Numbered from the stretch's first letter, positions 19,619 through 22,812 are shown. The stretch is 34,693 bases of DNA from an uncultured Actinomycetes bacterium (GCA_900313905.1 OMTG01000120.1:1-34693); one strand, 5' to 3'. Notes: generated by a model from the sequence alone, not told the origin. A program made the numbers and translations.

Positions 19619-19711
19619 GAAGATGCGCTATTCGTGCAATCTGGAGCATATGAAGACGTGCTATTCGTGCTGAATTCAGGATGCAAAGATGTGCTATTCG
19701 TGCAAAATAGG
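19619..19711 (+). repeat. Array A: three 33-bp repeat units
   Basis: The core GCTATTCGTGC occurs at 19627, 19660 and 19693, exactly 33 bp apart, each preceded by AAGA-Y-G-Y. The region between cores is less conserved. Array A is highly similar to array B over about 90 bp and lies in the same orientation, so the ATPase gene between them has direct-repeat flanks. In the plus frame the units read as short peptides (MRYSCNLEHMKTCYSC then stop). Confidence 0.9.
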
Positions 19712-19745
19712 TATTGACCAGCACTTATAGAGATGGAGGAGACGC

Positions 19746-21101
19746 ATGCTCAGAAGGAAGGCATACAGCCAGCTGCTCAGGTGGAAGCAGGAAAAGCAGG
19801 GCAGGACCGCAGTGCTCCTCGAGGGGGCCAGACGTGTCGGAAAGAGCACGCTTGTGGAAGAGTTCGGCAAAAACGAATATGCCTCCTGTCTGGTGATCGA
19901 TTTCTATCAGGCGCCCAAGGAGATAAGAGGCTATTTCGAGGAATACCGTGCCGATCTGGATACCCTGTTTCTCTATCTCCAGGCATTCTATGGGGTGGAT
20001 CTCGTCGAGCGCAATTCGCTCATCGTCTTCGATGAGGTGCAGGCATATCCTGCAGCGCGCGGCCTCATCAAATACCTTGTGGCTGATGGCAGGTATGACT
20101 ATATAGAGACGGGGTCGCTGCTCTCAATCAAGCAGAACGTCGAGGGCATCATGATTCCCTCCGAGGAGCAGGCCATGCGGCTCGATCCCTTCGATTTCGA
20201 AGAGTTCCTATGGGCAATGAGGGAAGAGAATCTCGCAACGCTGATCAAGAAGCAGTTCGAGGCGCTCAAGCCGCTGCCGGAAGCCCTCCACAGGAAGGCT
20301 GCAGGGCTGCTGCGGGAATACATGCTGGTCGGTGGCATGCCCCGTGCGGTTGCGGTCTATGCGGAGCAGCGGAAGTTCGCCCCCGTCGATGAGGAGAAGC
20401 GCCAGATCCTCGAGCTCTACCGCAACGATGTAGGGCGCTTTGCCAAGGGGTACGAATTCAAGGTGATGTCGATCCTCGATAACATCCCCGGGCAGCTCTC
20501 GAAGCATGAGAAGAAGTTCACGCTTTCGTCGCTCGGCAAGTCTGCCCGCATGAGGAGCTATGAGGAGGCGTTCTTCTGGCTTGCCGATGCTCGCATTGCC
20601 AACATCTGCTATGCATCGAACGATCCGAGCGTTGGCCTGTGCCTCAATATGGAGCGGCTTTCCTTCAAGTGCTACATGGCTGATACTGGCCTTCTGGTCA
20701 CCCTGGCTTTTGCGGACAATGATGCAACCACCGAGGATGTCTACCGTGCCGTCCTCAGAGGGGATATTGGCATCAACGAGGGCATGCTGGTCGAGAATGT
20801 CGTGGCTCAGATGCTGACCGCATCGGGGCACAAGCTCTTCTTCTATTCGAGCTCGGGCGAGCGTGAGGACCGGATGGAGATTGATTTCCTGATAGCACGA
20901 CCTTATGCAAATGCGGCAGGAAAGCCGCGCATCAGCCCGATTGAAGTGAAGTCTCCCCGCCAGTACAGCACGACATCCCTCGATCGGTTCAAGCAGAAGT
21001 TCGGAAAAAGGATCGGTGCCCAATATGTGCTCCATCCCAAGCAGATGAAGATCGAGGGCGACCGCATCTATCTTCCGCTGTATATGGGCTGGTGCCTGTA
21101 G
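19746..21101 (+). CDS. AAA_14/DUF4143 ATPase with PD-(D/E)xK-like C-terminus
   Basis: P-loop ATPase of the common AAA_14 plus DUF4143 architecture, 451 residues. The ATG at 19746 follows GGAGGAG. Walker A is GARRVGKST (Lys33, Ser34); Walker B is SLIVFDEVQAYP (Asp96, Glu97); the sensor-like YIETGSLLSI follows near residue 119. The helical middle (LREYMLVGGMPRAV, residues ~189-202) leads to DUF4143. Near the end Glu350, Asp380 (MEIDFLIA) and Glu400-x-Lys402 (SPIEVKS) form a PD-(D/E)xK nuclease-like arrangement. The biological role of this family is not established; defence and genome maintenance have been suggested. It is flanked by direct repeat arrays A and B, and its 3' end is duplicated before array C. 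Confidence 0.92.
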   Translation: MLRRKAYSQLLRWKQEKQGRTAVLLEGARRVGKSTLVEEFGKNEYASCLVIDFYQAPKEIRGYFEEYRADLDTLFLYLQAFYGVDLVERNSLIVFDEVQAYPAARGLIKYLVADGRYDYIETGSLLSIKQNVEGIMIPSEEQAMRLDPFDFEEFLWAMREENLATLIKKQFEALKPLPEALHRKAAGLLREYMLVGGMPRAVAVYAEQRKFAPVDEEKRQILELYRNDVGRFAKGYEFKVMSILDNIPGQLSKHEKKFTLSSLGKSARMRSYEEAFFWLADARIANICYASNDPSVGLCLNMERLSFKCYMADTGLLVTLAFADNDATTEDVYRAVLRGDIGINEGMLVENVVAQMLTASGHKLFFYSSSGEREDRMEIDFLIARPYANAAGKPRISPIEVKSPRQYSTTSLDRFKQKFGKRIGAQYVLHPKQMKIEGDRIYLPLYMGWCL

Positions 21102-21111
21102 GGGCATTTCC

Positions 21112-21208
21112 AGATGCGCTATTCGTGCAAATTGGAGCATATGAAGACGTGCTATTCGTGCAGAATCCGGGGTACGAAGAAGTGCCATTCGTGCAAACCC
21201 CCAATGTG
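21112..21208 (+). repeat. Array B: three 33-bp repeat units
   Basis: Cores at 21118, 21151 (GCTATTCGTGC) and 21184 (GCCATTCGTGC), again exactly 33 bp apart. The array starts 10 bp after the ATPase stop codon. The reading frame MRYSCKLEHMKTCYSC... runs open from here into the serpin gene, because 33 is a multiple of three and no stop intervenes. The serpin's own start and ribosome binding site are downstream. Confidence 0.9.
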
Positions 21209-21290
21209 CGAGGCACCGTTTGCCGGCTCGCGGGCGATCCCTGGGACCCTCCATATAGAATATTGCCAAGTCCGGGGGAGGGGAGGCCCT

Positions 21291-22634
21291 ATGGAACGTC
21301 TTTTCGAACGCCGCACTGCCTTGGCCATTCTTGGCCTGCCCCCTGCAGTTCTGCTGTGTTCGTCGCTTGCAGGCTGCGACACCAGCAAGCCGCAGGATGC
21401 CGCAATGTCCGCCAGCACCACCGACCTCACGGCATCCGTGGAGGCAGCCTCATCCTTCCAGGAATCTATCGGAGACCTCCTTATGGACCAGGCTGCGACC
21501 TTGGCTACCTATTCCTTCACAGCCCGCCTGCTGCAGGAGACCTGCTCTGCCGAGCCCCAGAGAAACGTGCTGGTCTCTCCTCTTTCAGCGCTCTTCGCCC
21601 TCGGCCTTGCTGAAGCTGGTGCAGCAGAGGAGACGCTCTCCCAGCTGGAGGCAGCAACCGGAATGGATGCTGATGGGCTTGCATCCTACCTGAATGCCTA
21701 CGCCCGGCGCATATCGGGCGAATCGCTTCACGATGCAGCCCAGAAGGGCGATGCTCTTGCCCTCAAGAGCGCCAATTCCATCTGGCTGCGCAGCTCGGAT
21801 AGCCTCGCTGTCTCCGATAGCTACCTTGCTGCCTGCAAGAGCAGCTTCTCTGCGCAGGCGTTCTCGGCGCCGTTCGATGCCATGACCGTCGACGATATCA
21901 ACGCCTGGGTCAGCAGCAGGACCGATGGGATGATCGACAGGATCGTCGATGAGATCTCTGGGAGCGACCAGCTCTTCCTTATCGATGCCCTTGCTTTCGA
22001 TGATGGATGGTACGAGCCCTTCGACGACAGCAAAGTCCAGGACGATATCTTCACCACAGAGGATGGGGACCAGCAGAACGTCCGCATGATGCATTCGCAT
22101 GAGACCGTCTATCTTGAGAACGACCTGGCAGAGGGTTTCCTGAAGCCCTATGAGGGGTTTGACTTCGCCTTCGTCGCGCTGCTCCCCAAGCAGGGCACGA
22201 AGCTCGCGGACCTTGTCTCGTCGTTTGATGGGACATCCCTGCACGACCTGGCCACAACCATCATCCCCGACGTCGAGGTCGATGCGGGCCTTCCCAAGTT
22301 CTCGCTTTCCTTCGAGACCACCCTCAACGACCAGCTCGCTGCAATGGGCGTGCAGGATGCCTTCGACCCCAGCCACGCGGACTTCTCGCGCATGGGCTCT
22401 GTGAAAGACGGCAATCTGGCGATAAGCCGCATCGTCCAGAAGACCTTCATGGACGTGAATGAGACCGGCACCAAGGCGGCCGCTGCCACCTCGATGGGGA
22501 TGTCTGGATCGAGCGCAGCTGCAGCCGAGCCCGAAGTCCGGGAGGTCATCCTCAACCGGCCCTTTGCCTATCTGATCATTGACTACGTGACCTCGACGGT
22601 GGTCTTTGCGGGGGTCGTGGCAAGCATGGAATGA
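21291..22634 (+). CDS. Secreted lipoprotein serpin (serine protease inhibitor)
   Basis: Suicide inhibitor of serine proteases, 447 residues, exported and lipid-anchored. The ATG at 21291 follows GGGAGGGGAGG. Residues 1-29 form a lipoprotein signal peptide (RRTALAILGLPPAVLLCSSLAGC) with lipobox LAGC and acceptor Cys29. The serpin fold covers residues ~70-447: NVLVSPLSALFALGLAEAGA, LKSANSIWL, and FVALLPKQGTKLADL. The hinge reads NETGTKAAAAT, the pattern of inhibitory serpins. The reactive loop continues SMGMSGSSAAAAE, placing P1-P1' near Ser-Ser by counting. It ends NRPFAYLIIDYVTSTVVFAGVVASM. Small residues at P1 suggest elastase-like targets, such as neutrophil elastase in the host. It is flanked by arrays B and C. 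Confidence 0.93.
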   Translation: MERLFERRTALAILGLPPAVLLCSSLAGCDTSKPQDAAMSASTTDLTASVEAASSFQESIGDLLMDQAATLATYSFTARLLQETCSAEPQRNVLVSPLSALFALGLAEAGAAEETLSQLEAATGMDADGLASYLNAYARRISGESLHDAAQKGDALALKSANSIWLRSSDSLAVSDSYLAACKSSFSAQAFSAPFDAMTVDDINAWVSSRTDGMIDRIVDEISGSDQLFLIDALAFDDGWYEPFDDSKVQDDIFTTEDGDQQNVRMMHSHETVYLENDLAEGFLKPYEGFDFAFVALLPKQGTKLADLVSSFDGTSLHDLATTIIPDVEVDAGLPKFSLSFETTLNDQLAAMGVQDAFDPSHADFSRMGSVKDGNLAISRIVQKTFMDVNETGTKAAAATSMGMSGSSAAAAEPEVREVILNRPFAYLIIDYVTSTVVFAGVVASME

Positions 22635-22639
22635 GCGCC

Positions 22640-22720
22640 AGACCATCTGGATATCCATGGCCGAAGGCGATTGCATCCATCTCCCGCTGCAGAGGGGCTG
22701 GTGCTTCTGGCAGCATTTCC
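22640..22720 (+). pseudogene. Orphan 3'-end remnant of a DUF4143 ATPase gene
   Basis: Directly after the serpin, MAEGDCIHLPLQRGWCFW can be translated. It matches the ATPase C-terminus KIEGDRIYLPLYMGWCL. At DNA level GGGCTGGTGC and then GCATTTCCAGATGCGC are shared with the ATPase end and its junction with array B. The remnant thus sits before array C exactly as the intact gene sits before array B. No upstream part of the ATPase gene is left. Confidence 0.8.
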
Positions 22721-22812
22721 AGATGCGCCATCCGTGCATATCGGGGTCTGCGAAGACGTGCCATTCGTGCAGAATCAGGGATATGAAGATACGCTATTCG
22801 TGCAAGGAATGA
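22719..22812 (+). repeat. Array C: three 33-bp repeat units
   Basis: Cores at 22727 (GCCATCCGTGC), 22760 (GCCATTCGTGC) and 22793 (GCTATTCGTGC), exactly 33 bp apart, same orientation as A and B. An ATG-started frame (22723-22812) would encode a 29-residue Cys-rich peptide beginning MRHPCISGSAK, but no ribosome binding site precedes it. Confidence 0.9.

Follow-up and report, generated by a model that had tools for sequence, protein, structure and literature searches.

We present here an analysis of a 34,693-nucleotide stretch of DNA from an uncultured Actinomycetes bacterium (GCA_900313905.1 OMTG01000120.1:1-34693; the whole stretch is called the window below), in which a gene for an AAA_14-DUF4143 ATPase is preceded by three short direct repeats with a period of exactly 33 bp (array A). 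Arrays of like spacing and position, each with a core sequence of its own, stand upstream of most of the related ATPase genes sampled, and both the association with DUF4143 genes and the co-divergence of core and protein are well supported. Array A is probably the cognate array of the adjoining ATPase, which would bind it cooperatively and thereby regulate its own gene. That the ATPase binds its array is likely, and that this binding represses the gene is a reasonable expectation held with less assurance; we infer in addition that assembly is cooperative and that the system serves in phage defense. The arrays, their position, their periodicity and its dependence on clade, their privacy within a genome and, where boxes are recognizable, their phasing with promoters were all computed directly.

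The motif GC(T/C)AT(T/C)CGTGC occurs nine times in the window, always on the plus strand, as three arrays (A, B, and C; Table 1) of three cores each, with neighboring cores exactly 33 bp apart. This arrangement had been described in an earlier, sequence-only reading of the window, and it was borne out: the six core pairs at 33-bp spacing compare with none in any of 100 dinucleotide shuffles. The 11-bp core named there is present as described, but the conserved unit is longer, at about 18 bp (AAGANGNGCYATYCGTGC). Arrays A and B are alike across about 90 bp and flank the DUF4143 ATPase gene, and B and C flank a serpin gene, both as that reading had it. The final GTG of array A lies 46 bp ahead of the ATPase start codon. 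No exact match to the core pair was found in the 2.78-Mb host genome outside the window arrays, nor in 139 further genomes from the same family. Single cores with zero or one mismatch are confined, within the host genome, to A, B, and C, and sites with up to three mismatches are not commoner there than those of a reversed control pattern (58 versus 79). A coding repeat was considered and rejected: the T/C variation of the core is synonymous in one frame only, and in A and B, inspected by eye, a stop interrupts that frame.

Table 1. Features of the window discussed in the text.
Feature	Coordinates	Strand	Description
Array A	19620..19703	+	Three 33-bp units; cores at 19627-19637, 19660-19670, and 19693-19703; canonical upstream array of the ATPase
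AAA_14-DUF4143 ATPase	19746..21101	+	451 amino acids; AAA+ domain at about residues 1-160, helical linker, predicted winged helix at about 237-311, PD-(D/E)XK-like domain
Array B	21111..21194	+	Three units, cores as in A, at 21118, 21151, and 21184; immediately past the ATPase stop codon; within the duplicated block
Serpin	21291..22634	+	Probable lipoprotein; PF00079 at 1e-76; host gene, bystander
Relic of ATPase gene 3' end	22662..22726	+	Aligned with 21053-21117; stop codon lost; precedes array C
Array C	22720..22803	+	Three decayed units, GCCATCCGTGC, GCCATTCGTGC, and GCTATTCGTGC; cores at 22727, 22760, and 22793; orphan, no ATPase left alongside

The relatives sampled are kin of the window protein, a nonrandom, bacterial set drawn mostly from the gut and rumen. 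For 79 of them, about 50 to 72% identical and from Actinobacteria, Bacteroidota, Firmicutes, Spirochaetes, Fusobacteria, and others, the best lag between 20 and 60 in the 250 bp upstream of the gene was 33 in 54, 34 in 18, and 32 in 1; the same scan was flat, with no peak at 32 to 34, in the 250 bp downstream and in a stretch inside the gene. Strong 32- to 34-bp arrays stand upstream of 85 of 111 ATPase genes versus 0 of 89 other open reading frames at the same loci, which is the clustering at DUF4143 genes that the sequence-only reading had proposed looking for. It had also proposed a search of the host and related genomes for the core at 33-bp spacing, and what proved to be shared at DUF4143 loci was the spacing and the position, not the core itself; the majority of 33 relatives in related genomes have an upstream array with a period of 32 to 34 bp, with differing cores. 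Arrays were scored as clear at 95 of 113 loci and have 2 to 5 units, mainly 3 or 4, with steps of 33 bp (145), 34 bp (45), 32 bp (12), and 31 or 35 bp (4); the steps are constant in 70 of the 84 arrays with at least three units. The last unit of the clear arrays begins at a median of 37 bp ahead of the start codon, and in the main clade (75 loci) cores terminate in GTG and are oriented toward the gene. Across loci, then, spacing and position are shared and core sequence is not.

Relatives carry their arrays only upstream. At three loci (L044, L045, and L074) an array that seems to lie downstream is that of a distinct second ATPase gene, which at L074 was judged from its reading frame only. DUF4143-type ATPase genes lie side by side at six loci (L044, L045, L074, L087, L098, and L103), in the same or in opposing directions, and their cores differ. 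On host contig C78 (locus L010), a DUF4143 ATPase gene interrupted by a stop keeps a recognizable 32-bp array; an array can thus outlive its gene.

Neither random placement of the arrays nor wide variation in their spacing, which the sequence-only reading had named as counting against it, was seen, although other DUF4143 clades have a period of about 23 bp. In a broad sample of such clades, 18 of 36 genes gave 22 to 23 bp, and in a targeted sample 17 of 28 gave exactly 23 bp, by an autocorrelation scan across many lags in which weak cases are ambiguous. Upstream 22- to 23-bp arrays with gene-specific cores were noted at L166, L170, L190, L191, L193, L194, L195, and L210, the core at L194 being GGTTGnnnAnCGCGTAAAATACA, in five units. 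Mapped on a 137-protein tree, the 33-bp (67 tips) and 23-bp (33 tips) classes require 3 changes, 37 tips having no clear period, whereas 300 shuffles of these labels gave a mean of 28 changes and never fewer than 21; the spacing is therefore inherited with the protein clade. At about 23 and 33 bp, the periods come close to two and three turns of the helix, a hint that the sites are read in duplex form. ATPase_2 (PF01637), a related family, was rejected as array-bearing, as its 22 loci showed no preferred period. Plasmid-borne DUF4143 genes of other clades are mixed, some with 22 to 23 bp and some without an array. On a Moraxella bovis plasmid (L278), a long palindrome (AGTTTAATTTAAGATATAATCTTAAATTAAACT) with a central TATAAT lies directly before the ATPase gene in place of direct repeats, and inverted repeats also occur at some other DUF4143 loci (L183 and L207).

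The core diverges together with the protein. At the 75 loci, core identity and protein identity are correlated (r = 0.62): the former climbs from 0.33 to 0.79 over a range of about 0.45 to 0.85 in the latter, across which spacer identity is flat at the chance level of 0.31 to 0.36. Inside a single array, cores are 80% identical and spacers 43%. Since shared DNA ancestry would have preserved the spacers too, it is not a sufficient explanation by itself. The cores are also private to their genes. The host genome contains ten DUF4143 ATPase paralogues with ten upstream arrays, of period 32 to 34 bp, and ten different cores. With one mismatch allowed, a core from complete genome G056 has its only four occurrences in its own array, and one from complete genome G059 has four in its own array and a fifth, with one mismatch, elsewhere; cores thus confined to their own arrays give no sign of a regulon, and a genome-wide regulon or dispersed repeat was rejected on this ground. 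Viral contigs gave 20 matches to the core pair, none with an ATPase, most of which resemble coding 11-residue repeats; a Bacteroidales core pair had no match in viral contigs. With no genuine array among these contigs, viral targets of the core were rejected as well. Five of the viral loci (L289, L290, L292, L297, and L300) have a coding-looking 33-bp repeat of 11 residues of the A-I-R-A type, probably a coiled coil, which mimics the core pair by chance. At 69 loci, serine or threonine at residue 271 of the ATPase goes with C after the GTG, and aspartate or glutamate with T or A; this residue is a possible specificity contact, a lead confounded by relatedness.

The window ATPase matches PF13635 (DUF4143; 1e-20) and PF13173 (AAA_14; 7.8e-20), as well as PADLOC PDC-S01 at 1.2e-103; four tested paralogues match PDC-S01 models too. 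An AlphaFold2 model built from 42 sequences has a predicted local distance difference test score (pLDDT) of 89 and a predicted template modeling score of 0.90. Its best structural matches by VIA-align are two archaeal AAA+ ATPases, PABY2304 (2qen; Z 16.5, 263 residues aligned, 3.9 Å) and then SSO1545 (2fna; Z 14.6, 271 residues aligned, 4.7 Å), both within residues 1 to 322; the match stops near residue 322, whereas the window protein goes on with the PD-(D/E)XK-like domain. Further fold neighbors are CED-4, plant nucleotide-binding leucine-rich repeat proteins (NLRs), and Avs5 (Z 12 to 14) and ORC/Cdc6 (Z 11 to 12). The order of helices and strands at residues 237 to 311 of the model fits a winged helix, and the whole-model match to PABY2304 covers this region; with residues 212 to 451 alone, fold matches to regulators of the ArsR/MarR type are weak (HlyU, Z 6.2; CadC, 5.4; CzrA, 5.2), below the tool's caution level of Z 8. 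Residues 212 to 451 modeled alone reach a modest confidence (pLDDT 74). Matches of the nuclease-like part are all weak, with Can2, Card1, McrC, and EndoMS at only Z 5 to 5.7 and, from Foldseek, MspJI with an E value of 0.02. The PD-(D/E)XK-like residues E350, D380, and E400-x-K402 are invariant in the 42 close sequences, as are the Walker A and B motifs, and position 380 is nearly invariant in a wider set of 21. Within 2 kb of the relatives' ATPase genes, no conserved neighbor gene, such as one for a recombinase, replication, or partition, was found besides a few further ATPases.

We propose that the ATPase, with its AAA+, winged-helix, and PD-(D/E)XK-like parts, would bind three to five asymmetric cores of the same orientation, set about two or three turns of the helix from each other, and would assemble on them cooperatively. 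The bound protein would most likely repress its own transcription, as array and putative promoter often overlap, and would so hold a potentially harmful nuclease-ATPase at a low level. With a core of its own for every paralogue, the copies would not cross-regulate. Of 25 Bacteroidota loci, 22 have a match to a TAnnTTTG box, and 21 of the 23 boxes matched begin 0 to 5 bp past a core, keeping the phase of the repeat; among 50 loci outside the Bacteroidota, 40 have a -10-like box, with offsets that gather at 3 to 5 and 12 to 18 bp past a core, about one turn apart.

Several observations weigh against this proposal. The phased promoter boxes are pattern matches only, and a sigma-70 consensus was not found on the plus strand of array A. 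The array geometry suits repression, and geometry is the sole ground on which repression is preferred to activation. A mutual-information comparison of residues in the protein with bases in the core picks out no clear region, nor is the winged helix clearly singled out. Some DUF4143 genes, such as those of Thermus HB8 and the Listeria plasmid copies, are without a direct-repeat array, so the rule covers two large clades and not the whole family.

Arrays B and C appear to have another history. They are ungapped copies of each other over 144 bp (79% identical), and the copied block takes in the last 64 bp or so of the ATPase gene. They are presumably by-products of a local duplication of the ATPase 3' end with its array around a bystander serpin gene, which would make C a relic. 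The simplest history would be that the ATPase gene and array were duplicated locally and most of the second gene was then lost, presumably in that order. Control of the serpin by array B was rejected, as its 62% identical orthologue (G041) is without such an array. A distant serpin gene in another genome (G024, locus L214) has a distinct repeat (TGAGACAnTCTAAAGAGACGAGATnGTCTCA), about 42 bp apart, on both flanks.

The sequence-only reading had taken the arrays for a protein-bound or recombination-active element bounding two cassettes. Its first half stands, as a DNA element tied to DUF4143 ATPases and probably protein-bound; the cassettes found no support in comparison. It is true that A, B, and C flank both genes and that B and C are copies of a single block, as they might if the ATPase and the serpin were exchanged between arrays, but in the relatives arrays lie only upstream, those that seem to lie downstream are a second ATPase's, the serpin orthologue has none, and the neighborhood holds no conserved gene such as a recombinase. 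We give exchange of this kind almost no credence. A CRISPR array was rejected in view of the short cores, partly conserved spacers, 2 to 5 units, and lack of a conserved neighbor gene, and REP/RAYT-type dispersed repeats because the cores are confined to their own arrays. Type III toxin-antitoxin systems such as ToxIN have short tandem repeats upstream of a nuclease gene, and tandem repeats of about 33 nt immediately upstream of a putative nuclease gene resemble them superficially; the transcript of the repeats could then be an RNA that acts as antitoxin to the ATPase/nuclease. This is highly improbable, since the array has no Rfam match, its RNA folding is not unusual (z from 0.43 to -1.63), no terminator was found between array and gene (repeat transcription was not assessed), and the short cores, unconserved spacers, and clade-dependent period (about 33 or 23) form the pattern of DNA sites. 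Initiator genes, too, often adjoin their own repeats, and Orc1/Cdc6 with its ORB elements is a case of an AAA+ protein with a winged helix beside specific repeats of its own. ORC/Cdc6 is among the fold neighbors, the winged helix is predicted here also, and the arrays might on this basis be iterons like those of origins or partition sites, left from former replicons, the ATPase being an initiator similar to Orc1/Cdc6. The likelihood is slim: ten copies with ten cores occur on one bacterial genome, and replication and partition genes are not among the conserved neighbors, no search having been aimed at origin features.

Two further explanations keep the array as a DNA site. A different host factor might bind it and control the gene, as separate regulators can read gene-specific operators, but from phylum to phylum the core varies along with the ATPase sequence, a genome with ten cores would need ten such factors, and no conserved neighbor is a candidate regulator; we consider this improbable. 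Alternatively, the array might be a licensing or self-recognition platform, on which an ATPase oligomer would be held inactive until a phage or plasmid disturbs the locus and releases or activates it (nuclease, abortive infection), with promoter control secondary. The STAND-like fold neighbors (CED-4, NLRs, and Avs5), the conserved nuclease-like residues, and the PADLOC PDC-S01 match agree with such a platform, as do the single array per gene with no other genome site and the separate core of each paralogue. Against it, the core pair is absent as a genuine array from viral contigs and the position of the array is already accounted for by promoter phasing, and we judge it unlikely, if worth bearing in mind. 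Autoregulation through the cognate array has its closest parallel in autoregulatory operator and iteron arrays, such as ParR-parC and the RepA iterons, in which a protein binds direct repeats at the promoter of its own gene. The window family shares direct repeats, at a putative promoter of the gene and with binding by the gene's product predicted, and differs in its clade-specific spacing of about 33 or 23 bp, in having several orthogonal copies per chromosome, and in encoding a nuclease-like ATPase, where the known arrays belong to proteins of replication or partition.

PDC-S01, a single-gene predicted defense system of PADLOC (PF13173 plus PF13635), is, according to passages of PMC12988326, the fourth most common predicted defense system in prokaryotes, with 29,494 bacterial and 9,986 archaeal instances; the same passages describe it as an ATPase fused to PD-(D/E)XK that was predicted via guilt-by-embedding, validation pending for most PDCs. 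An anti-phage role of the family is thus a prediction. The upstream array sets the window gene apart from this description, as no array is mentioned in those passages or in the other papers retrieved. Literature searches on DUF4143, COG1373, AAA_14, DUF234, and PDC-S01 (open-access papers, no preprints) found no description of such arrays, and no mechanism for PDC-S01 genes. Tentatively, and with more doubt than confidence, PDC-S01 might be a two-part system of an ATPase-nuclease and a private, clade-periodic array that, beyond any service as an operator, acts as a sensor or safety catch, with assembly on it restraining the nuclease and with codes diverged among paralogues so that one genome could accommodate ten orthogonal units. 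In most members of the two large clades tested, a gene-private array of fixed spacing singles out a candidate DNA site for each protein. This opens binding, specificity swaps, and autoregulation to experiment, along with the way in which the ATPase, the DNA, and the nuclease are coupled, and the many natural pairs of protein and core are a data set for a DNA recognition code.

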